From IMG/VR virus record IMGVR_UViG_3300027773_000194, positions 1 through 24,058 of that record: a stretch of 24,058 bases of DNA. The stretch is one strand, 5' to 3'. Both the position numbers and the translations under genes were made by a program. This DNA is from a virus. This document shows positions 5,199 through 16,904 of this stretch, piece by piece. Under the pieces are notes generated by a model. That model saw only the letters and a list, made by a program, of their open reading frames with translations. It was not told the origin of the DNA and searched no databases. Numbering within the stretch: the first letter of the stretch is position 1; each line of letters opens with the position of its first letter.

Positions 5199-6962
5199 CT
5201 AAATGATCTTGGCGAGATTGGCGGGCGTGTTGAGATAATTGGCGATCGTCATGTGCCCGAGCGCCGATGGATGCGTGCCATCGTTGCCAGTGTAGCAGTT
5301 ACAGATCACATAGGTATCGCCAACCGATGGCGCGCCGGGCAGCGCATCGACCAAAGTTACAGCGCCAGCCGAGGTGTGATACGCAATATTCGCAACCCTG
5401 TTGATCTGCGATCCTGAGGTAAATCGGGCGGTGTAACCGCGATAGGTGTCCGTGCCCGTGATAGTGGTATCTGTGAAAGCTCCCGTCGAGGGCGCGCCCG
5501 TCACAGAGCCTGTGAAACTCGGCCCCGGTAGGGCCGCCGGCCAAAAGCCCCCATTAAGCGAGGGAGTTCCAGAGGAGTTGACCTCTACAGCCGCCGCAGC
5601 ATCGAAAATATCGGCAACGTTGTACCCTCCCGCCTGAGCGACAAAACCATTCGCGGACGGATCTCTGAGCCAGGAATTGTAGTGTTGCCGGACCGCCTCA
5701 AAAGACGCATTCTGGAAGCTCTGCCCGGAGACCGTTTGCCAGCCGTCGGAACTCGCTGTGCGCGGCAGGATTGTGCAGACAATGAACTTTTTTGCCCGCG
5801 AGATGAACCAACTCGCAATGGTTATCAGGTTCGACTGGAGCGTTGCGAGCGAGGTTCCGCTATAAATATCGTTCGTGCCATACTCAAAGATTACGGTAGT
5901 CGCCATTTCGGCGATCTTCATCGATTTCCAGGAGCTAAGGCGGTTTGCAAATTGTGAGGCTAGAATGCCGCCCTGGGCACAGTGCACGAAAGGAAAATTC
6001 GCGATCGTGTTGCGCTCGATAGTTGAGTTGAGCGTTTGCACCGTATAATTGCGCATGAGCCGGTAAAGATAGCCGCCTCGCGAATATTCGATGCCGCCAT
6101 CATTCAGGCCAACGCAGATGGAATCGCCGACTAAAGCCACGGTGGCTTGCGGCTGCGGTGAAAAACCGAGGACGGCGGCTGGGCCTCCTGAATAGTTCCA
6201 TTGATCAGCAGTCTGCGTAATCGAAGCGGGGCTATCGACATAGTTGCCGGCTATCCATCCCTCGCCATTATTAAGGCCCCCGGCGCCCGTGCCGCCAACC
6301 ACCCCGGTGTGGACATTCACCTGGCAGTTCGGGCCAGCAGTGAAACGGGCATGGTTAATAAAGAAGACCTCGTTGTCCGCCACTTCAAAGGGAACAGGGT
6401 CAGAGAAAAGCGGCCCGTTCTGCGGAATTTCGCCGAAACGGTTGCCGCCGAAGGTGACGGGTACTTGATCGCCGGTTGCATCCGTGTAACCGCCAGCCCC
6501 CATTTTTTGCAAAGCAGCGTAGACGCGAACGCGGTGGCGGCCGGGTTTACCCAACACCCCCGTGGGCTGATCGCCCCAGTTTCCGAAGACAAGCACAATA
6601 TGTGACGCGGGAAACATCGCCCGTACGCGCCAGCGCACGGTGTAGGGGGGCGCGCCGGGCTTGAAGGTGGACAAAGTGATGGGCGTCGCCATGTCCTGGC
6701 AGCACGGCTTGTCGCCTAAAATCTGCCACCCTCCATTGGCCAAAGCCGTCGGCAGCCCTTGGACGGCGTTGAGCGCTGGAGCAAGCCCGTTTGTAGGAGT
6801 CGGCGCGATCCCGGCGAAATACCAGCCGTTGGCTTGCAACGCCGGTTGATCAAATGACGGGACAGTAACGCTCGTTCCCGGCGTACTGAAATAAGTGCGG
6901 CCATTGACGGTAACGGAGTTCCTGCTTCCGTCGTCCGGCGGCAGCATGAGTCTTGCTGGCAT
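5199..6962 (-). CDS. SGNH/GDSL hydrolase tail protein, probable polysaccharide deacetylase (587 aa)
   Basis: GAGGG precedes ATG 6962. The first ~270 residues are beta-rich and probably attach it to the virion. The catalytic domain has block I VALVGDSICVG (Ser281), a block II glycine (CAQGGI), block III YGTNDIY (Asn364) and block V NDGTHPSALGH (Asp561, His564), so the full Ser-Gly-Asn-Asp/His set is present. Such enzymes remove acetyl or other acyl groups from surface glycans. Between blocks III and V lies an extra beta module (FTDTTITGTDTYRGYTARFT...GDTYVICN, about residues 475-555), ending just before the catalytic Asp. It is set off from the upstream adhesin by a terminator, so it may be expressed at a lower level or from its own promoter. 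Confidence 0.85.
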   Translation of the reverse strand: MPARLMLPPDDGSRNSVTVNGRTYFSTPGTSVTVPSFDQPALQANGWYFAGIAPTPTNGLAPALNAVQGLPTALANGGWQILGDKPCCQDMATPITLSTFKPGAPPYTVRWRVRAMFPASHIVLVFGNWGDQPTGVLGKPGRHRVRVYAALQKMGAGGYTDATGDQVPVTFGGNRFGEIPQNGPLFSDPVPFEVADNEVFFINHARFTAGPNCQVNVHTGVVGGTGAGGLNNGEGWIAGNYVDSPASITQTADQWNYSGGPAAVLGFSPQPQATVALVGDSICVGLNDGGIEYSRGGYLYRLMRNYTVQTLNSTIERNTIANFPFVHCAQGGILASQFANRLSSWKSMKIAEMATTVIFEYGTNDIYSGTSLATLQSNLITIASWFISRAKKFIVCTILPRTASSDGWQTVSGQSFQNASFEAVRQHYNSWLRDPSANGFVAQAGGYNVADIFDAAAAVEVNSSGTPSLNGGFWPAALPGPSFTGSVTGAPSTGAFTDTTITGTDTYRGYTARFTSGSQINRVANIAYHTSAGAVTLVDALPGAPSVGDTYVICNCYTGNDGTHPSALGHMTIANYLNTPANLAKII

Positions 6963-6978
6963 AATCCCTCTTTTGGCA

Positions 6979-7005
6979 ATAAAAAGGCCGCCGGACGGCG
7001 GCCTT
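6979..7005 (-). terminator. Intrinsic terminator between adhesin and SGNH genes
   Basis: On the minus strand a 9-base perfect stem AAGGCCGCC / GGCGGCCTT with a four-base loop (7005-6984) runs into TTTTTATT (6985-6978). It lies 26 bases beyond the stop of the Mtd-like gene and ends before the ribosome site of the SGNH gene. It should cut transcription of the late operon, wholly or in part, at this point. Confidence 0.85.
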
Positions 7006-7030
7006 ATAAGAAACGGGCTGGCTTTTGCGC

Positions 7031-7564
7031 TTAAGACGCTGGCGGCGTGATCGCCATTGCTAAGACTGATACGCGCACAGTGCCGCCGCTAAAGCTTGCG
7101 CCGCCGCCAATGGCCGCAAGAGCAAGCGTCGTCACGCCATCGTAGTAAGCACCGGGAGAGGCGACTCCCATATTCGTCGTGCCGGTAGAGACCCCTATGC
7201 CAGATCCCCAGTGGCCGTTGCCGTTCTGGCTATCGTTGACGGTGATCGATGCGCAGCCGGTGATGGCCGTCACAACGCGCAAGGCAACAGCAAAGATAAT
7301 GTAAGTTCCGGCAAGCGGAATGTTCGTTGTTGTCCCCGAACATGTGATGAGCTGCTCGACCCATTGCAACGATGCCGTCGCGCCATTGGCACTGGGCGCG
7401 ACCGGAACCTCGGAGAGTTTTGCCGCCGGAAATCCGTTAGGAGTTACGCCGTCATTGACGATCACGCGATTGTTGGTGGTATCGACCCAAAGCTCGCCCT
7501 GGGCGCCGTGTTTTCCCAATATGTTGGCGGCGGTGTCGCGCCGCATCTGAACTTGGACAGCCAT
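7031..7564 (-). CDS. Tail adhesin with Mtd-like N-terminus (177 aa)
   Basis: ATG 7564 shares one base with the stop of the large hub gene (TAATG), so translation is probably coupled. The start VQMRRDTAANILGKHGAQGE followed by LWVDTTNNRVIVNDG is the short trimeric anchor motif seen in the major tropism determinant N-terminal domain and in many tail fibres. The C-terminus (CSGTTTNIPLAGTYIIFAVA...GGGASFSGGTVRVSVLAMA) is a compact beta domain, probably the exposed tip. Position right after the hub suggests a fibre attached to the tail tip. No template/variable repeats or reverse transcriptase are in the window, so there is no sign of Mtd-like diversification. Confidence 0.7.
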   Translation of the reverse strand: MAVQVQMRRDTAANILGKHGAQGELWVDTTNNRVIVNDGVTPNGFPAAKLSEVPVAPSANGATASLQWVEQLITCSGTTTNIPLAGTYIIFAVALRVVTAITGCASITVNDSQNGNGHWGSGIGVSTGTTNMGVASPGAYYDGVTTLALAAIGGGASFSGGTVRVSVLAMAITPPAS

Positions 7565-10284
7565 TAATGCACCGTGCCTAGATCAATCGTTGCCAGAATA
7601 AACCCGTCGCTCACTGCGCCCCATTGGTCGGCCTCGGAAACGGACGCCGACACCGTCCCTAAATCGAGGTTTTGGTTGAGCGCAAGCGCCTGTGAGACCG
7701 GGCCCAGCGGCGATCCTCCACCTGTTGGCGTGTAAGTATAAACTTGGCATTCAGCGAGATCCTCAACCGCGCGTCCAAATATGTTGAAGCTCTGCAATTT
7801 CACATAGAGGGTCACGCCGACATATCCTGACGGCAATGAGTATTGGAAAACAGAGTTATCGACGCGGACGAAGGGCGTGCCCGAGGCATGAGAGGCTGGC
7901 TGCGTGCCGTAAAGCCCGCGATAAAGTGTCGAAAGCCGATAGGTGTTCGGCGGAGAGGCTTGGAGCGCCGCCGTCTCGTAAGAGAACAGCTCTCCATCGG
8001 CATAGCAAAGCGTGACGCCGTTTTGCGCGTCTATTGCCGTTCCGCTTTGAAGAGTCCCGCCGCTTTCTTGCAGGCTGACCGTGCATGTGTCGGCCGTATC
8101 GGGCACGACGCCGGAATTGCCCATGGCCGCAGTGAGCACGCCTTGGCGAGAAGGGCCCGCGATGACCCCAACCATTTGATAGGCGCTGCCATCGGTCGAG
8201 AGCCACACATTAGCGCCGCCCCAATTCGGATCGGCAACCCCGCTCTGTCCCCCTGGAGTCGCGGCGCCGCTCGTGGCAATTGACGCGCCTGTGACAAGGG
8301 AGAAGGCCGGCAGGAACGTCAGAATTTCATTGCCGGCGGCATATTGCGCGCCCCAGAGATAAATACCGTCCCCGGCAACGCCGGTATAGGTCTGCGTTCC
8401 AAACGGGTTTTCAAGCGAAATATAGAGCGTTGGCGTCCCGGCGGCCTGCATGGGGGCGGAGATAACGATCTGGAACCAGCCGTTTCCGGCGTCGTAGATT
8501 CCCGTCGACATCGAACCGCTCGCGATCGTATCGGGCGCCCCAGAAGTTCCCGCCGAAAGGTCGAAATCACATCCTACCGCGCCGCCGGTGCCGAGATAAA
8601 AACTGAGCCTGGCCGCCGTGCGCGCGCCCGCCTTGGCATAGACCGCAAAGGTAATTTGCGTTCCTGCCTGTTGCGAAGCAACCGCTCCTTGCGCCGTGTA
8701 GTGCTGTCCTGACGTAGCGGTTTCAGTGAGCGTATAGACAGGAGCTACGCCGGCCGAAGCGGCAATAAAGACCTTTGGAATGCCTCCCGTAAGGGTGGCA
8801 GGGGGCTCAAAGATGACCGGCGGATTAACGCGGGACGGAATAACGTTCTGATCGGTTGAGTTCCCGCCCCAGTTCTGAAGCTGGTATTTAACGGGCGTTG
8901 ATACGCCCGCCGGAAACTCCTCGGCCGTGATCGAAAGGAGACCATCCTCGCCCTCCTCGATTTCGGTGATTCGAACGGTCACATTATTGAGCCCAAGAGC
9001 CGAGTCCGTGATGTTCACAAGATCCATCGGCTCCAGCAGGCAGTATTCGAATGAGAGCTTAAATTTGTAGTGGTTGCGGATATAGAGGCCGCGCTGCAAA
9101 ATTGTTTGTGCCGCGATCTGACCAACAGTCGGGTCGCAAATCTCGTTAGAAGTAATGTCTGGGGCCATGCGAAGCCCGTAAGTTTCGATGGCATTTTGGT
9201 CCCAAACATCAATGGGCCACGGCTCATAGGAGTTTTCCCGCTGCCAAAGCACCCAAGGCTCGTTGACATTCAACGGAAGCCATGAAGCGATACGCATATT
9301 GATCTGGATTCTCTGCCAGTTATAGCTCGCGAACGGGTCCGAGCGTTCGACTTCCACCGGGTCTTTGCCGTCCTCGTGAATGAAATCCTCGTCCGTAAGT
9401 GAATAAACCGGCGTGACGTTTGGCGTAAAGGTGACGCCCGATGGGAAAAATTTATTCGGCGTCGGCCCAATGATGCTATCGGCATACGGAACGAACTTGA
9501 GCTTGCCGCCTGACCAAACTGCCGCCGTGTTCGTCAGCTTGAGCCAGCGGGCGAGGATCGCGTTCGCGGGCTCCTGGTTTGTAAGAGCCGGGGAGAGCGC
9601 GAGATAGGCTGCGCGGCAATAACCTTGATAGGAACTGTCCGGGCCTGAAGCGGGCGAGAAGAGCGTTGTCGCGTCAATTGAGGCCGGCGGGAAGCCGACG
9701 CCATATTGCGGGTTCGTCAGAAAATCCTGAATGAGCTGCGCCGGGTCGGCATCGCCGCCATTGATGCCTGATGATCCGAAGAGCAGGCCAAACACCTCCA
9801 TCGAAAATTGCGGGAGGTTCGCGCTCGTTCCAAGATAATAGTTATAAGAAGTGATGTAGGCGAGGCCATGATAGGAGAGCGCCTGGCTGGGGAAGTAGGT
9901 TTGCAGAACTCCCCACGGCGTCTGCGTTTGCGAGCCGTCGTAAAAGGCCCAAATGTCCGCGCCCCATTGGTTCGTTGCACTCTGTCCGGTCCAGATGGTT
10001 CCGAGCCCTTGGATCGGGCCCTCGCAGAGGCCCATGATCCAAGAGGTGTAATACTGCCAAGCTTGCCGACCTTGATTATTGCCGCCCCCGAGGCCCTTTC
10101 CATGTCCCTGACCTTCTGGATAGCCCCAATAGCCGTAAAAGCCGCCCGTCCAGATGCAGTTCGGGGCGATCTTATTGGCGCCCCAAACAATCGAAATCGG
10201 CACGTTCCGGGACGAGGTTTGGATCTGCAGCCCGGTGTAATAAGGGATCTGCCCTTTATTCTGATGCTGGCGGAGAAGACCCAT
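7564..10284 (-). CDS. Large tail hub / host-specificity protein, GTA gp15-like but without TIM barrel (906 aa)
   Basis: The frame is open to 10449, but ATG 10284 overlaps the NlpC/P60 stop (TGATG) and has AAGGAG upstream, so it is the start. The first ~500 residues resemble the phage tail hub region of GTA gp15 and lambda J-like proteins: QTSSRNVPISIVWGANKI, LCEGPIQGLGTIW, AVWSGGKLKFVPYADSIIG, and the hub block ILQRGLYIRNHYKFKLSFEY followed by CLLEPMDLVNITD. The glycosidase-like TIM barrel that RcGTA gp15 carries is absent here and is found instead in the gene at 12290-15259. Residues about 520-662 are an inserted carbohydrate-binding-like module. The C-terminus has DGELFSYETA and RLSTLYRGLYGT motifs typical of these hubs. 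It should form the tail tip needed for host contact and DNA passage. Confidence 0.85.
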   Translation of the reverse strand: MGLLRQHQNKGQIPYYTGLQIQTSSRNVPISIVWGANKIAPNCIWTGGFYGYWGYPEGQGHGKGLGGGNNQGRQAWQYYTSWIMGLCEGPIQGLGTIWTGQSATNQWGADIWAFYDGSQTQTPWGVLQTYFPSQALSYHGLAYITSYNYYLGTSANLPQFSMEVFGLLFGSSGINGGDADPAQLIQDFLTNPQYGVGFPPASIDATTLFSPASGPDSSYQGYCRAAYLALSPALTNQEPANAILARWLKLTNTAAVWSGGKLKFVPYADSIIGPTPNKFFPSGVTFTPNVTPVYSLTDEDFIHEDGKDPVEVERSDPFASYNWQRIQINMRIASWLPLNVNEPWVLWQRENSYEPWPIDVWDQNAIETYGLRMAPDITSNEICDPTVGQIAAQTILQRGLYIRNHYKFKLSFEYCLLEPMDLVNITDSALGLNNVTVRITEIEEGEDGLLSITAEEFPAGVSTPVKYQLQNWGGNSTDQNVIPSRVNPPVIFEPPATLTGGIPKVFIAASAGVAPVYTLTETATSGQHYTAQGAVASQQAGTQITFAVYAKAGARTAARLSFYLGTGGAVGCDFDLSAGTSGAPDTIASGSMSTGIYDAGNGWFQIVISAPMQAAGTPTLYISLENPFGTQTYTGVAGDGIYLWGAQYAAGNEILTFLPAFSLVTGASIATSGAATPGGQSGVADPNWGGANVWLSTDGSAYQMVGVIAGPSRQGVLTAAMGNSGVVPDTADTCTVSLQESGGTLQSGTAIDAQNGVTLCYADGELFSYETAALQASPPNTYRLSTLYRGLYGTQPASHASGTPFVRVDNSVFQYSLPSGYVGVTLYVKLQSFNIFGRAVEDLAECQVYTYTPTGGGSPLGPVSQALALNQNLDLGTVSASVSEADQWGAVSDGFILATIDLGTVH

Positions 10285-10748
10285 CAAAGGCTCCTTGCCC
10301 AATAGCTGAAAACGCGCGGCCTGCGCAAAGGATTGGAAAGCGTAAGATTGGCCGCAACTTCTTCCTCGATGACCGCGCGGGCAGGCTGAAAGGCGTGGAC
10401 AATGGCGAGGGGCTTTGATGCCGTGACGATGCCGCCGTGTGAATAGCACCGGCCGTAGCGGAAGAGCATCACATCGCCGGGGCGCGCCTCTTCAAAGGAG
10501 ATTTCCTCAGCCCGGTCAAAGACGAAACCCAAATATTTCTCCTCCGATCTGTGCATCATCCAATCTTGCGCATAGGGGCGCGGGTCGAACGGCTCGCAAA
10601 GGCCGCAATCGACAAAGACACGGACAAGCAACATGCCGCAATCGACACCGGCTCCCTTTATATCGCCCTGAGGATGATATGGCGTACCAATCCAGCTTTG
10701 TGCTTCTGCAACGGCTGCAGCGCGCTGGACTTGCTCGGAAGTGCTCAT
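10284..10748 (-). CDS. NlpC/P60 tail peptidase, GTA gp14-like (154 aa)
   Basis: A papain-like cell-wall peptidase of the phage TIGR02219 type: AQSWIGTPYHPQGDIKGAG leads to VDCGMLLVRVF with catalytic Cys37, and YSHGGIVTA holds His104, with a further polar residue in IVHAF (His118). It should cut peptide stems of peptidoglycan at the tail tip during DNA entry. It lies between the DUF2163 hub and the large hub, exactly as in the GTA tail module, and overlaps the next gene by three bases. The ribosome site is weak, and about 100 bases of apparently empty sequence precede it. Confidence 0.9.
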   Translation of the reverse strand: MSTSEQVQRAAAVAEAQSWIGTPYHPQGDIKGAGVDCGMLLVRVFVDCGLCEPFDPRPYAQDWMMHRSEEKYLGFVFDRAEEISFEEARPGDVMLFRYGRCYSHGGIVTASKPLAIVHAFQPARAVIEEEVAANLTLSNPLRRPRVFSYWARSL

Positions 10749-11080: not shown

Positions 11081-11983
11081 TCAAAACAGAGTAAACGTCG
11101 GCTCTGGCACGTAGGGAAAGCCGCGGAAGTTCGCCAGATTGTTAAACCGGCTCTGACAGGTGCCTTGAGTGTGGTCGCAGCCCCAATAGGCGGCGAAAGA
11201 GTCGCCGATAGCAGGCGCGTTCTGAAGAGGGTAAGCGAGCACCAGAGCTCCGCTTCCCGAATAGGTTGTTGCGTATTTGATGCTCGCGGTGACGCCGTTG
11301 TTAGCCCCGGAGGTGAAGGAAATCGACCCCTGGACGTAGTTATTGGGCGGCCCGGAGAAGCCAGACCAAACAATAAAATTGTTGCTCGAACCCGCAGCGA
11401 CGGTTCCGTTTGATGAGAAGGCGTTTCTTACCAGCCCGCAACCGGAATCATAGAGCACATGCTGGCACGACGGCGAGTAAACGTTGCGCGGCATATGCGA
11501 ATCGAGCAGAATGAGATCTGATTGAACTGTGAGTCGCGCGGCCGTGCGCCCAATCGAGTCGATGGTGCCGATCCGCCCCTTAAAAAGGATCACGCTGCCG
11601 ATCGGGTTGCTGCAATCAGCAGGCGCCCAAGAGTTAAGGAATGCTCGCTCCCGCTGAATTTCGGCTCCGTCAAATACGCCATTTCTAAGTGCTTGCAGGA
11701 AAGGAACACTGCCGACGGTGTGGGCGCTCAGCGCCGAGATCGTGATCTGTTGCTGGTCGACTTCAACTCCAGTGGAGCATTTGAACTTGAGGCCGTCGAT
11801 AAGGATCGAGTTGGCGGTGTAGCCATAGCCGTTGAGCGTGATCGGAACATCGGCATTGGTATAGGTAAGAATGAGCCCGGTGCGCAGGGTAAAGGTGTAG
11901 CAATCAGCCATGAACAACTGCGCGTCCGGATCGGCACGCACGGCATTCAAAAGGGCCACGAGAGCGGGCGGGGCGGATCTCAT
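11081..11983 (-). CDS. DUF2163 tail hub protein, GTA gp13-like (300 aa)
   Basis: The N-terminus MRSAPPALVALLNAVRADPD with YTFTLRTGLILTYTNADVPI is the usual start of the DUF2163/TIGR02218 family. The C-terminal third has four cysteines (about residues 169, 180, 267 and 274: PSCQHVLYDSGC, WGCDHTQGTC) followed by FNNLANFRGFPYVPEP, the signature block of the family, where related tail hubs are reported to hold an iron-sulfur cluster. It should form a ring of the tail hub below the distal tail protein. The ATG overlaps the stop of the preceding small gene (ATGA). Confidence 0.88.
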   Translation of the reverse strand: MRSAPPALVALLNAVRADPDAQLFMADCYTFTLRTGLILTYTNADVPITLNGYGYTANSILIDGLKFKCSTGVEVDQQQITISALSAHTVGSVPFLQALRNGVFDGAEIQRERAFLNSWAPADCSNPIGSVILFKGRIGTIDSIGRTAARLTVQSDLILLDSHMPRNVYSPSCQHVLYDSGCGLVRNAFSSNGTVAAGSSNNFIVWSGFSGPPNNYVQGSISFTSGANNGVTASIKYATTYSGSGALVLAYPLQNAPAIGDSFAAYWGCDHTQGTCQSRFNNLANFRGFPYVPEPTFTLF

Positions 11984-12171
11984 TTGAAGGTCCCATGAAA
12001 CCGCAGCAGCCGATTCCTCTGAACAGCAGGAGTTTGCGGCGGGGCCGTCTCATGCCAGTGAGCCGCGCACGCTAGGCGCACGCCGCTTGGGGCAGGCCTT
12101 GATGGGATGAGCGGCTCGCCAAGAAGGCTGGCCGCGAGATGAAAGGCGGAGTTAGATTCCATGGCTTTCAT
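11980..12171 (-). CDS. Small phage protein overlapping the DUF2163 gene (63 aa)
   Basis: The frame is open to 12261, but ATG 12171 is preferred: it overlaps the stop of a 41-residue gene (ATGA) and has a GAGG ribosome site inside that gene. The product (MKAMESNSAFHLAASLLGEP, then HWHETAPPQTPAVQRNRLLR) has no recognised domain. Its stop overlaps the start of the DUF2163 gene, so three genes in a row are joined by 4-base overlaps, which supports real translation. It could be a small chaperone for the hub, but nothing in the sequence proves it. Confidence 0.55.
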   Translation of the reverse strand: MKAMESNSAFHLAASLLGEPLIPSRPAPSGVRLACAAHWHETAPPQTPAVQRNRLLRFHGTFK

Positions 12172-12293
12172 GTTCGCGCCTCGAAAAGCTCGTTGATGAG
12201 GCGCGGAATGGTAATAAGCGCACCCGCATAATTGATCGCAAGAGGCGGCGGCAGTAAGCACGCAAAGCAGGCTAGAAGGTCAAGCGGTGTCAC
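12168..12293 (-). CDS. Very small phage protein (41 aa) between DUF2460 and DUF2163 genes
   Basis: Starts with GTG at 12293, overlapping the TGA of the TIM-barrel/DUF2460 gene (GTGA), and ends in an ATGA overlap with the next small gene. The product (VTPLDLLACFACLLPPPLAI, then NYAGALITIPRLINELFEAR plus a last Thr) is hydrophobic at its N-terminus and could span a membrane once. The overlaps at both ends and the absence of rare codons are the evidence for it. No family is recognised. Confidence 0.6.
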   Translation of the reverse strand: MTPLDLLACFACLLPPPLAINYAGALITIPRLINELFEART

Positions 12294-15259
12294 GGTTTCA
12301 CGCTCCTGAATTTCAATGATTGCACCTGCCACAGCCCGTTCATGAACTCCTCGAAGTCCTCTTGATCATCAAGGAAGCGGCAATTGAAAGCATAGGTGCC
12401 GTCCCAGGTGAGATTGGCGTTGGCCGCGGGCGCGCTCGCGAAGATGAGCGTGTTTGGTTGCATTACAGTCCAATTCGGCCCGGCAAGCGTTGCATGCGAG
12501 CCGGAGGCGATTATGGTTGGAAAGAACGCCGCCGCCACGTTGGCGCAAGAATACATAAGGCTAGAGAAATAGATCCCCTGTCCGGCCGTTCCTGTGTAGA
12601 TGGTCGAGCCGGAACTTTCGAGATAGAGCCGCGCGAGCGGCGTTGTTGCGGCCGCGATGGGGCAGGACGCCGAGATCAGATATGAGCCGTTCGAATTGTG
12701 CGCGATCGATGCGGCCGTGATCCCAGAGCCAGGAACTGCAGTTGCGGCTATAAGATCAAAGTCACAAATATGGAAGAGAGAGCCATCATAGAGTTGCAAT
12801 TGGCACTGCGCGCGTTCAGCAGCCTTCACGTAGCAAGCGACCGTGAAAAGAGCTCCAGCGGAGAGCATTTTCCCGTCTGTCGCGGCGCAGTAATGAGCGT
12901 TATTGGTGCTGTCTTCTTGGAGCTTATATTGCAGCACTGCCAAACCATTGACATAGATCTGCGAGATCCCAGTCACCCATGAGATGGGCTCTGAACTATA
13001 GGCAAGTGAGCGTTGCAAGGTAAAGGCCGTAGCCGTTCCGCTCGCATTTTGAACTCCGGCATAGGCACCTGCAGCCGTATTGTCTGATGGATCGACATAA
13101 AGGAACGTCCCGAGCTGCCCCTGGCACTGAATGTAAAGGCCCATTATTTCCTGCAGCGAATTGACGGCAAGACCTGGAAAGACTCCGTTTGAGTCAAGCC
13201 CCTCAATGGTGAGTTCGAATTCATAAAGCCCCTGAGCGTAAAGCGAGGCGCGCACCTCGCGCCCGGAGACGTGAGAGGCAACGCGCGTCGAATAAGACGG
13301 GCGCTTATGGACGGACCAGCCGCGGCCGGGGAGACTTGGAAACACAAAGGGCATGGGAACCTCTGGAGGCGGATCGGGCACGGGCGGCATGATGAGGGGC
13401 CCCTTGCCATTGAGCCAGTTGCCCGCCTCCCAGCTGCCCGTATCGCCCCACACATTCGAGAGCTGCGGGAAGACCGGAAATGGTCTTGCGTCCCAGTTCC
13501 AAACCGAGCAAAATTCCGGCTGGATCATTTGGACGCCGGCGCCGGATGTGGCATTGTGCCCATCCACAAACCAATATTCGTACAAGGCCTGAAGGGCTAA
13601 GATCTGCAGCGTTTGATCGCGCTTCGGCAGAAAGCCGCCGCCATCGGCCGGGAGCCAGATTGACCAATAGGCCGTTCCGGATTCCGTTGAACCCGCGGAA
13701 TAAAAGAGGTTCGGCTGGTTCGTGCATTTATCATTAGATGGGAACCCATATTCGGCAAATGCAATCGGCTTCGATTGCGGCAGCCACTCCGTTTGCGGGC
13801 CTTGTGGAATCCAGCCGGAGCCCGTGTCGTAGATCGCGTGATGCGGATTGTTCCACCACCAGCGGATTTGCTTATTGGCGAGGATCTGCTGGCCTGAGTA
13901 AAAAGGCTGGCGTGACTGGACGAGCCGGTCGCCCCCAGGGAGCGAAACCTGCAAATCCGTCCCGTTGGGGTCAAACCCGCGCCCCAAATTGTTCGAATCG
14001 GAATACCACCAATAAAACTTCTCGCCGCCCTCGATATTGGCCTTGAGGTAATCCTTCGAATAAATCGTCGGTGTGCCCGAAAGCCCGAGTCCGTTCATTG
14101 CGGAGCTCGAAGGAGGCCAAGAGCCGGCCGGCGCTTGCGCGCTCCAATTCAGAACGTCGACCCCGCCCGTTCCCGTAGTCCAATCGGAGATGGGCATGTA
14201 GTTGTCAAGGCAAACAAGGTCGATGTTATGGTGAGCCCAAAGCTGGTCAAGATGCGGCCATTGCCCCTGCGCGGGCGGAGTCGAGGCGGTGTGTTGATAG
14301 CCCATCCAGTCCGACCAGTCGGCTGAATAGGAGATGAGGTTATGGAAATTGATCGTATCCTTAGTGAGCCCGGCGCCATCGAAGGTGCTGCGCACATCGT
14401 CCGAGAGCTCAATCAGGCCTTGGACGAACGGATAATCCCAGACTGCGTTGCCCGAACCATCCGTTGCTCCAGCCATACTCCAGGCAGGACCACGAATCGC
14501 CTCCAAGCCGCGAAGCTCAGAGCCAAGGAGAAATAGATCGACACCGCCAGCAACGACACAAAGATTCGCATAGTGGAGAATCATCCTCCGGTAGGTCCAG
14601 TCCGTTGCCGGGCCGGAATAGTGCACGGTTTTGTTGCCGTAGTCGCGCGTAAACTGTGAGGCCGCGGCGGGACCTAGAAAGGCATGAACGGCGGCCGCGG
14701 CGGCGCTTGAAACATCTACTCCGTTATAAGTGATCCTCCCGCGCCAAGGCTTACTTGGGGCATCCATAAGGATGAAAGGATAAAACACGACCCGCAGCCC
14801 GCGCGCCTTCAAATCCTGAACGCACTCGACGAGCGATTGATCCGATGGCGTTCCGCCGTAGGTAAAGGAGCCGTAAGCATCCGTTGAGATAGGAATGAGG
14901 CCAGCCGAAAATTGTGTGAGCGAAGAGCATTGCCAGTTTTCGGCAACCCAGCCTGAGCCAGTCCATTTCTGAAATGAGCCGCCAATGTAGGTGGTCGAAG
15001 GATAAATCTGACAGGCTGAAATATTGGTCGAATTACAAAACCAGGAGCAGACCAGGGCGACCGTCTTACATGCTGGGAAGGCCGCTTGCAGCTGATCGAT
15101 CGAAACGGAATAATCGGTTCTACTCGAGGGGGAACCGTTGAAATAATAGTTCACGCCCTTTACCGACGATTCGGTGATGCGCTGGCCTTGGCGCGCCGCT
15201 GTGCCATAGGTGAACTCGCCCGTAGAGGGCAGCAAATTCACGCCATTGATGTAGCTCAT
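12290..15259 (-). CDS. TIM-barrel + DUF2460 fusion tail protein with inserted carbohydrate-binding-like module (989 aa)
   Basis: Start set at ATG 15259 (MSYINGVNLLPSTGEFTYGT), preceded by GGGAG; the frame is open further upstream, to 15376. Residues 1 to about 630 match the glycosidase-like TIM barrel of RcGTA gp15 in order: TDYSVSIDQLQAAFPACKTV, VVFYPFILM, PWRGRITYNG, YRRMILHYANLC, FLLGSELRGLEAIRG and AFAEYGFPSNDKCTNQPN. Glu248 (GSE) and Glu503 (AEYG) are placed like the acid/base and nucleophile of GH-A glycosidases. Residues about 635-785 and 918-989 are DUF2460 (GTA gp12, distal tail protein: FPSLPGRGWSVHKRPSYSTR; LWQVQSLKFRSVKP), split by a carbohydrate-binding-like module. It probably forms the distal tail ring with an attached glycan-acting domain. 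Confidence 0.82.
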   Translation of the reverse strand: MSYINGVNLLPSTGEFTYGTAARQGQRITESSVKGVNYYFNGSPSSRTDYSVSIDQLQAAFPACKTVALVCSWFCNSTNISACQIYPSTTYIGGSFQKWTGSGWVAENWQCSSLTQFSAGLIPISTDAYGSFTYGGTPSDQSLVECVQDLKARGLRVVFYPFILMDAPSKPWRGRITYNGVDVSSAAAAAVHAFLGPAAASQFTRDYGNKTVHYSGPATDWTYRRMILHYANLCVVAGGVDLFLLGSELRGLEAIRGPAWSMAGATDGSGNAVWDYPFVQGLIELSDDVRSTFDGAGLTKDTINFHNLISYSADWSDWMGYQHTASTPPAQGQWPHLDQLWAHHNIDLVCLDNYMPISDWTTGTGGVDVLNWSAQAPAGSWPPSSSAMNGLGLSGTPTIYSKDYLKANIEGGEKFYWWYSDSNNLGRGFDPNGTDLQVSLPGGDRLVQSRQPFYSGQQILANKQIRWWWNNPHHAIYDTGSGWIPQGPQTEWLPQSKPIAFAEYGFPSNDKCTNQPNLFYSAGSTESGTAYWSIWLPADGGGFLPKRDQTLQILALQALYEYWFVDGHNATSGAGVQMIQPEFCSVWNWDARPFPVFPQLSNVWGDTGSWEAGNWLNGKGPLIMPPVPDPPPEVPMPFVFPSLPGRGWSVHKRPSYSTRVASHVSGREVRASLYAQGLYEFELTIEGLDSNGVFPGLAVNSLQEIMGLYIQCQGQLGTFLYVDPSDNTAAGAYAGVQNASGTATAFTLQRSLAYSSEPISWVTGISQIYVNGLAVLQYKLQEDSTNNAHYCAATDGKMLSAGALFTVACYVKAAERAQCQLQLYDGSLFHICDFDLIAATAVPGSGITAASIAHNSNGSYLISASCPIAAATTPLARLYLESSGSTIYTGTAGQGIYFSSLMYSCANVAAAFFPTIIASGSHATLAGPNWTVMQPNTLIFASAPAANANLTWDGTYAFNCRFLDDQEDFEEFMNGLWQVQSLKFRSVKP

Positions 15260-15647: not shown

Positions 15648-16904
15648 TTACAAAGATGTGAGCTTGCTCAAACCGAGATGCGCTCCCGCGCGAACCCCCT
15701 CGTTTACAGTGCGCATAATGGCTTGGGCATTGTTCTTTAGAAAAGCGCGAACGCCCTGCGCATCAATTGCAGACACATTGAAATGAGTAGAGTGGTGAAC
15801 CTGCAGAGCACGGGCAGGGCCATCGCTAGAGCCTAGCATGGTACGAAGTGCAGCTGCAGGACCGGCGGGTACGATCATTTCGCCCTTGTGAATTTGAGCA
15901 ATCATATCCCGAGGCAGTTCCCAGACTCCCGTTGCAAAGGAGGCAAGTCCCGCTCCAGCCGAAAGCACGGCGGCTTCACCTGCTGCGGCAGGGCCCGCCG
16001 CGGCAGGACCCATTACTGGAGAAAGGAAACCGAAAATGCCTGCAAAAGTCTCTGCTGCAGAGGCAGCGATCGATCTGAGCATCCCGGGGATTACTGCCGC
16101 CATAGATGCGTGGGCGCCAGCAGACTCCGCGCTGGTCCTTGCCGAAACCCCTGCGAGTACGGCTGTGGTTTTGGCGCCCTCCCCAGCTTGCGTGCCCGCT
16201 GTCTGTTGGGCAACGCCTGCCAGCCAATCGGCAACCATTCTGGTCCGCGTCTGGACGAAGATCTGAATCAAATGGGTTAGCACATTTTGAGCGGCGTCTC
16301 GCAGCCTCATATGGCCCGTAATCATTCCCATGATTGCTGAGGAGAACCCGGATCCAATCTGCTGGAAGCTGCGCTTGTAGTCATTGCATATTTGATTGCT
16401 GCCAGCCCGCTCGATCTCGATCCTCCTTGAGCTGGATTGGCTGGCCAGGCCATCGATGTGCCGTTGAGCTGCTTCATATGCAGATGTGCTTTGCTGCAGC
16501 GTGCTTTGAATGAATTGAAGATGCCGGAGCCCGAAGCTTTCTTTCTGTCTCTCGGTCCCTGAGGCGTCAGAAAGCTCCTGCTTCCGGCCAACCTGCCTTG
16601 CCTGCGCAATCTCTTTTTCCAAGGCTTCGCGCTGCTCCCTACCAGCGAGCGCGATGCTGTATTGCGTGAGTTCACTTTGACGGGCGATGTTGACAGCTGA
16701 GTCGTTTGAGCTCTGGGCGACAGCAAGCTTCTGTGCCGCAGTGTTCGCGTAGGCCTGCGGAATTGAAGCGAAGTTAGAATTGATTTGCTCCGCCCCGCCC
16801 TGTATCGCAGCTGAGGCCGTTTGCACGGCACTTGCGGCCTGCCGCATTCCGTCCTGCAACGACGATATATCGGCAGTGAACCTTATGGAGACCTCGTCTG
16901 CCAC
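15648..16904 (-). CDS. Tail tape measure protein, short (418 aa)
   Basis: Starts with GTG 16904 (VADEVSIRFTADISSLQDGM), a typical tape measure opening. Residues 15-190 are a long helical stretch rich in Ala, Gln and Ser (AVQTASAAIQGGAEQINSNF; REALEKEIAQARQVGRKQEL). The middle (FQQIGSGFSSAIMGMITGHM) and a Gly/Ala-rich hydrophobic part near residues 265-330 could cross the host membrane. The end (SDGPARALQVHHSTHFNVSA, AFLKNNAQAIMRTVNEGVRA) is the usual C-terminal block of phage tape measures. At about 1.5 angstrom per residue, 418 residues would mean a tail of only about 60 nm. It sets tail length and leaves with the DNA. Confidence 0.85.
   Translation of the reverse strand: MADEVSIRFTADISSLQDGMRQAASAVQTASAAIQGGAEQINSNFASIPQAYANTAAQKLAVAQSSNDSAVNIARQSELTQYSIALAGREQREALEKEIAQARQVGRKQELSDASGTERQKESFGLRHLQFIQSTLQQSTSAYEAAQRHIDGLASQSSSRRIEIERAGSNQICNDYKRSFQQIGSGFSSAIMGMITGHMRLRDAAQNVLTHLIQIFVQTRTRMVADWLAGVAQQTAGTQAGEGAKTTAVLAGVSARTSAESAGAHASMAAVIPGMLRSIAASAAETFAGIFGFLSPVMGPAAAGPAAAGEAAVLSAGAGLASFATGVWELPRDMIAQIHKGEMIVPAGPAAALRTMLGSSDGPARALQVHHSTHFNVSAIDAQGVRAFLKNNAQAIMRTVNEGVRAGAHLGLSKLTSL

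Follow-up and report, generated by a model that had tools for sequence, protein, structure and literature searches.

A glycosidase-like barrel fused to the probable distal tail protein of a virus with an RcGTA-type tail tip

The stretch of DNA analyzed here, referred to as the window, comprises the 24,058 nucleotides (positions 1 to 24,058) of IMG/VR virus record IMGVR_UViG_3300027773_000194. Its minus strand holds a single open frame of 989 codons (protein P0001), whose ATG is preceded by a Shine-Dalgarno-like sequence. The surrounding gene order is that of the Rhodobacter gene transfer agent RcGTA: tape measure, fusion gene, gp13-like, NlpC/P60-like, and gp15-like (Table 1). A preliminary description, made from the sequence by itself, read this frame as a TIM barrel followed by DUF2460, and Pfam confirms both. 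GTA_TIM (PF13547) matches residues 221–598 (E 1.5e-93; 313.9 bits, the cut-off being 27, with profile positions 1–299 covered), and DUF2460 matches two stretches, residues 644–809 and ~921–988 (4.7e-30; 105 bits against a cut-off of 30.4), which lie within residues 635–989; the barrel motifs quoted in that description are also present in the protein. The barrel-plus-distal tail protein architecture is near certain, and P0001 very likely serves structurally as a distal tail protein. Taken as a whole, we consider it probable that P0001 belongs, as distal tail protein, to a siphophage tail tip of the RcGTA type and that its N-terminal part is a glycosidase-like barrel of clan GH-A.

GTA_TIM is expected in gp15, the megatron, as in RcGTA, but here it sits on the DUF2460 protein. 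A phmmer search of the PDB aligned residues 5–620 to residues 221–761 of the RcGTA megatron Rcc01698 (6tba_8A, E 2e-64), and also aligned the barrel with the R4C megatron. Since the peripheral domain of the RcGTA megatron is residues 230–744 (Bardy et al., PMC7296036), P0001 holds this domain complete, beyond the Pfam core; the block begins near residue 4, well ahead of the Pfam boundary. An AlphaFold2 model was made from an 84-row alignment of the window and fetched loci, with phage-collection rows left out, superseding an earlier 18-sequence run with a predicted local distance difference test score (pLDDT) of 61. The model has a pLDDT of 80, mostly above 90 in the barrel and mostly 67–93 in the DUF2460 core. 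Compared by VIA-align 2, it matches the R4C megatron (8gtc_M) with a Z score of 32.9 over 509 aligned residues at 3.0 Å. The GH113 mannanases follow with Z scores of 23–25 over ~290 residues at 2.6–3.1 Å and 18%–21% identity (5ylh: Z 24.7, 291 residues, 2.6 Å, 19%), which places the barrel in the GH113-like (β/α)8 fold, and the remaining clan GH-A enzymes rank next at Z ~14. By sequence, GH113 (PF22612) matches P0001 at residues 132–185 alone (31.6 bits against a cut-off of 27) and scores below the cut-off in the relatives.

In the model, E248 lies directly behind strand 4 (242–247) and E503 lies within strand 7 (499–504), the layout of clan GH-A, in which GH113 is a Glu/Glu retaining family (PMC9032380). 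The earlier statement that both glutamates are kept holds for every relative barrel covering these columns: 57/57 and 59/59 barrels fused to distal tail proteins, and 16/16 and 15/15 barrels that stand alone or are of the megatron type, have glutamate at the 248 and 503 columns, respectively. From position and invariance we take the pair to be the candidate catalytic glutamates of clan GH-A, and, as predicted from sequence and model, glycosidase activity of the barrel is likely.

Solved distal tail proteins are found at the DUF2460 part by profile A1 (RcGTA Rcc01695, 3.4e-7; R4C 8gtc_G, 2.2e-7), which bears out the earlier assignment of DUF2460 to the distal tail, or gp12, role. Foldseek pairs the model with 8gtc_G (E 2.7e-4, probability 1.00, TMt 0.63), and T5-type distal tail proteins appear in lower rows; a DALI-like structure listing was dominated by barrels, so that the absence of distal tail rows there is uninformative. 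Because the profile and Pfam matches agree with those of VIA and Foldseek, both halves of P0001 are assigned by sequence and by fold. DUF2460 is interrupted by an insert of ~150 residues (~776–928), jelly-roll-like, that the preliminary description did not mention. The gp15-like hub (P0002) carries a homologous insert, 37% identical over 143 aa (window 8215–8784 in the hub, 12476–12934 in the distal tail protein). The hub copy matches the RcGTA head spike fibre Rcc01080 (5.8e-12), and it is through this copy that the P0001 insert is linked to Rcc01080.

Relatives were gathered by scans of IMG/VR and of GTDB genomes and by genome surveys, and fall into three arrangements. In the two-gene form (61 loci) a barrel-DUF2460a protein of ~750–850 aa is followed by a free DUF2460b of ~205 aa, or in some cases of 350–400 aa with an insert. 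The single-gene form is seen in eight lineages, namely the window (= L003), L004, L005, L006, L054, L088, L096, and L098, with the frame intact in the window, L005, L096, and L098. In the third arrangement, found independently, the barrel's partner is a distal tail protein of a different family, phrog_1302; this is the case in L026 (8001–10475; 1.1e-26) and in L055 (10001–12574; 8.4e-23), a locus in Methylocella silvestris TVC. No barrel was found in the hubs of the two-gene and single-gene loci. The insertion region has been lost in 21 of the 62 barrel-bearing DUF2460a copies, about a third (e.g., L009, L020, L025, L036, L040, L047, L048, and L052), while the free paralogue keeps it; the L005 distal tail protein has two jelly-roll-like inserts in tandem. 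Stand-alone barrel proteins of 714–780 aa, belonging to phrog_19101 and neither hub nor DUF2460, occur at L081:3775–5919 and L082:4254–6596, and their barrels group with those of megatrons.

The barrel-distal tail fusion is found again in viruses whose hosts are soil bacteria akin to Beijerinckia. Matches at E ≤ 1e-140, a level reached by barrel-distal tail proteins and not by megatrons, are present in 36 of 248 genomes from the family of Beijerinckia mobilis (Beijerinckiaceae) and in just one of 297 sampled across its order; the remaining strong matches in the order are for the most part ~1300-aa frames, that is, megatrons. A Methylobacterium genome (G003) has both the fusion and an ordinary megatron, and two-gene fusions occur in cultured strains such as B. 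mobilis UQM 1969, Roseiarcus fermentans DSM 24875, Methylocapsa sp. S129, and Beijerinckia sp. L45. It had been suggested at the outset that such fusions may be widespread in rhizobial phages, and the recurrence across Hyphomicrobiales prophages agrees with this. Among 68 records of the phage collection that match P0001, none covers 80% of it. The proposal that isolated phages already have the fusion was rejected, as Brevundimonas phages fuse another domain and the DUF2460 of Acinetobacter phage L030 has no barrel. In the cultured Brevundimonas phages L028 and L029 (both 6399–8849), a glycine-rich ALK_LTK_GRD domain, annotated as hypothetical, stands N-terminal to DUF2460. Among the papers searched, none was found that describes barrel-distal tail fusions.

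The trees show one fusion lineage; in most of its members one DUF2460 copy is given over to the barrel and a second, free copy comes after it. In the IQ-TREE phylogeny of the DUF2460 domain, the barrel-bearing DUF2460a copies are one group (support 100/98), and the free DUF2460b copies and single-gene forms are another (97/96, including one long-branched phage row). The eight single-gene forms are a clade (99/87) beside the free b copy of L104 (100/97); in the barrel tree, their barrels nest among those of the DUF2460a copies. The simplest history would have the window form as derived, the barrel having joined a formerly free DUF2460 copy and the other copy having been lost. The preliminary description had proposed a shift of the barrel over three genes, away from the phage's own hub. 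The barrel block does correspond exactly to the megatron peripheral domain, and the hub is without one. However, P0002 is closer to the barrel-less hubs of Brevundimonas, Acinetobacter, and Pseudomonas phages (34%–39% over ~500 aa, 249–335 bits) than to megatrons (22%–31% over ~150–170 aa, at most 58 bits). The hub and megatron profiles align behind the barrel only, the front part being matched by hidden Markov model. Barrels of distal tail proteins and of megatrons form two separate groups in a tree whose root is not fixed and which gives no direction. Because the hub resembles barrel-less hubs so much more than megatrons, a move within this genome is unlikely. A chimeric assembly or annotation artefact, which the broken frames of some relatives might suggest, has next to no probability and was rejected: intact single-gene fusions come from other metagenomes (L005, L096, and L098), an identical copy lies on another contig (L003), and two-gene fusions are present in the cultured B. 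mobilis and R. fermentans.

How a distal tail protein with a barrel would work can be pictured from RcGTA, where a three-fold baseplate is held by the N-termini and long loops of the distal tail ring, the odd subunits of the ring being different from the even ones (PMC7296036). By analogy with RcGTA and R4C (PMC7296036, PMC10276861), we infer that the ring is hexameric here too, with DUF2460 forming the six-fold ring at the tube end. In RcGTA the OB domain of the distal tail protein and the peripheral domain of the megatron are neighbours, since the tailspike TspA is in contact with both (PMC13420450). Since the RcGTA ring N-termini take part in baseplate contact, a barrel at the N-terminus would be placed close to the position of the megatron barrel. 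The barrels would thus surround the tube end close to where ring and baseplate meet, and Pro-rich linkers of ~15 residues would anchor them. They may bind and cut host surface polysaccharide (capsule or exopolysaccharide) during approach or adsorption, and the jelly-roll-like insert may help to hold the sugar. Ribosomes may also start at codon 636 and make a free distal tail protein, such that one gene would supply both subunits; whether a tail then carried three or six barrels would depend on whether ring subunits are mixed.

Sequence signals for such an internal start are conserved. All eight single-gene forms have an in-frame start codon where the free copy began, ATG in six and GTG in two, with pairing energies to the anti-Shine-Dalgarno sequence of −5.3 to −10.7. 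Seven of the eight are at or below −5.9, a level reached by 6.4% of the 172 other in-frame internal ATG or GTG codons of these genes. The mean at the start codons of free copies is −6.0, against −1.4 at the homologous places in barrel-DUF2460a linkers. That codon 636 is in use, and that the ring mixes barrel-bearing and bare subunits (for instance 3+3, matching the three-fold baseplate), is a possibility that we raise tentatively from these signals; if true, one gene does what relatives do with two tandem paralogues. There is close to an even chance that codon 636 is instead a fossil, with a single 989-aa product and six barrels per ring. The junction would then have arisen at the start of the free gene and inherited its ATG and Shine-Dalgarno sequence, and L098, which reads GTG ACA ACG CCG, does resemble the starts of free copies. 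Against a fossil, the signal persists in 8/8 forms with synonymous divergence close to saturation (fourfold sites 37%–60% identical), and the residues ahead of the Met636 position vary (EVP, GVQ, GVP, and VPA). Because one gene may yield both a barrel-ring and a bare ring protein, a count of six barrels cannot be assumed. The preliminary placement of the barrels on a ring higher up the tail, possibly in six copies, is doubtful on this ground, as a conserved internal start could give barrel-free subunits, and also because the RcGTA ring N-termini contact the baseplate and most relatives have two paralogues of which one bears the barrel.

The barrel might also be a carbohydrate-binding or spacer domain without catalysis, its glutamate pair kept for binding. 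The RcGTA peripheral barrel is described as a domain of unknown function (PMC13420450), there are no reports of activity, and the loops of the barrel differ from those of GH113 at 18%–21% identity. We nevertheless think this rather unlikely, as the glutamates after strand 4 and in strand 7 follow clan GH-A and, in the barrels that cover them, are invariant whatever protein carries the barrel. Several observations weigh against our interpretation of P0001 and of the single-gene form. The Shine-Dalgarno sequence and ATG could be fossil, the eight forms descending from one event, and the linker amino acids are partly conserved. Grouping the single-gene forms with the a copies was 33–35 log-likelihood units worse, with p-values of 0.11 and 0.086 in approximately unbiased tests; because these missed 0.05, the derived-clade history rests on branch support. 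The window is an incomplete virus record, and a second distal tail gene may lie elsewhere. The single-gene forms L004, L006, L054, and L088 have broken frames. Lastly, the insert in P0001 is evident from sequence and would be jelly-roll-like by homology, with an AlphaFold2 pLDDT below 50. As for the broken frames of those four loci, they may reflect sequencing errors or prophage decay.

The glycosidase-barrel distal tail protein has known counterparts in RcGTA-type tail tips and is a candidate "evolved" distal tail protein, its insert at residues ~776–928 being a putative extra sugar-binding domain. The megatrons of RcGTA (Rcc01698; 6tba/6teh) and R4C (8gtc_M) have the same full-length barrel and glutamate pair, in tail tips of the same kind with the same gene neighbours (distal tail, hub, NlpC/P60, and gp15). 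There, however, the barrel forms an insertion within trimeric gp15; in the window gp15 is without it, and the distal tail protein has it as its N-terminal part. The DUF2460 proteins Rcc01695 and 8gtc_G share the core and the place in the gene order, but at ~210 aa they have no barrel, while P0001, at 989 aa, has both barrel and insert. The GH113 β-mannanases AaManA and BaMan113A have the same fold (Z 23–25) and Glu/Glu at strands 4 and 7, but are free enzymes with 18%–21% identity to the window barrel. "Evolved" distal tail proteins of Gram-positive siphophages, such as skunaviruses, have inserted carbohydrate-binding modules (PMC10688798). There, as probably in the window, the ring is a platform for extra sugar-active domains; these are binding modules in an unrelated phage group, in contrast to the glycosidase-type barrel of the window. 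The Brevundimonas phages Strzyga and Polewnik (ON529867 and ON529863) likewise have a large N-terminal domain on DUF2460 and a barrel-less hub related to that of the window, but the fused domain is the glycine-rich ALK_LTK_GRD. Because the same barrel and glutamate pair occur on megatron, DUF2460, and phrog_1302 proteins, the barrel would seem to be an autonomous module for which position around the tube end outweighs the host chain. For the role of the barrel in RcGTA-type baseplates, a question left open by PMC13420450, the fusions offer proteins that are soluble and separable and so can be assayed. Ring composition at the six-fold/three-fold joint can be tested directly through the paralogue pair and the conserved internal start.

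Table 1. Features of the fusion gene and its neighbours, in window coordinates
Feature	Coordinates	Strand	Basis
Fusion gene, 989 aa: GTA_TIM barrel, Pro-rich linker, DUF2460 with inserted jelly-roll-like domain	12290..15259	-	
Barrel, residues 4–620, equivalent to RcGTA megatron peripheral domain, GH113-like fold	13400..15250	-	phmmer and VIA
E248, candidate acid/base, after modelled strand 4	14516..14518	-	Invariance; strand 242–247
E503, candidate nucleophile, within modelled strand 7	13751..13753	-	Invariance; strand 499–504
Pro-rich linker, residues 621–635 (GPLIMPPVPDPPPEVP region)	13355..13399	-	Low pLDDT at 621–633
GAGG, Shine-Dalgarno-like, 5 nt ahead of codon 636 ATG	13360..13363	-	ΔG −7.0 with anti-Shine-Dalgarno
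In-frame ATG (Met636), at which a 354-aa distal tail protein may start internally	13352..13354	-	Start position of free DUF2460 in two-gene relatives
DUF2460, first part, residues 644–778	12926..13330	-	Pfam
Jelly-roll-like insert, residues ~776–928	12476..12934	-	Similar to hub insert
DUF2460, last part, residues ~921–988	12296..12499	-	
gp15-like hub P0002, 906 aa, barrel-less, with a jelly-roll-like insert of its own (residues ~501–690)	7564..10284	-	
NlpC/P60-like peptidase (gp14-like)	10284..10748	-	NLPC_P60 5.1e-4, below Pfam cut-off; phrog_329 1.1e-11
gp13-like baseplate hub	11081..11983	-	Phage_phiJL001_Gp84_N, BR0599
Tape-measure-like protein, upstream of fusion gene	15648..16904	-	phrog_2854 2.1e-17

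Among the neighbouring genes, the hub was considered as a second site of the barrel and rejected: Pfam finds Phage-tail_3 and Rcc01698_C in the 906-aa P0002 and no GTA_TIM, in agreement with the earlier reading of this gene as gp15-like and barrel-less. For a 93-aa frame at 11980–12261, no homologue was found outside the same virus. Directly after the hub gene, a 177-aa protein (7031–7564) begins with Mtd_N, the N-terminus of the major tropism determinant. Downstream of the tail genes lies a 587-aa GDSL esterase/lipase-like protein (5199–6962) with a weak C-terminal match to Phage_BR0599 (0.02).

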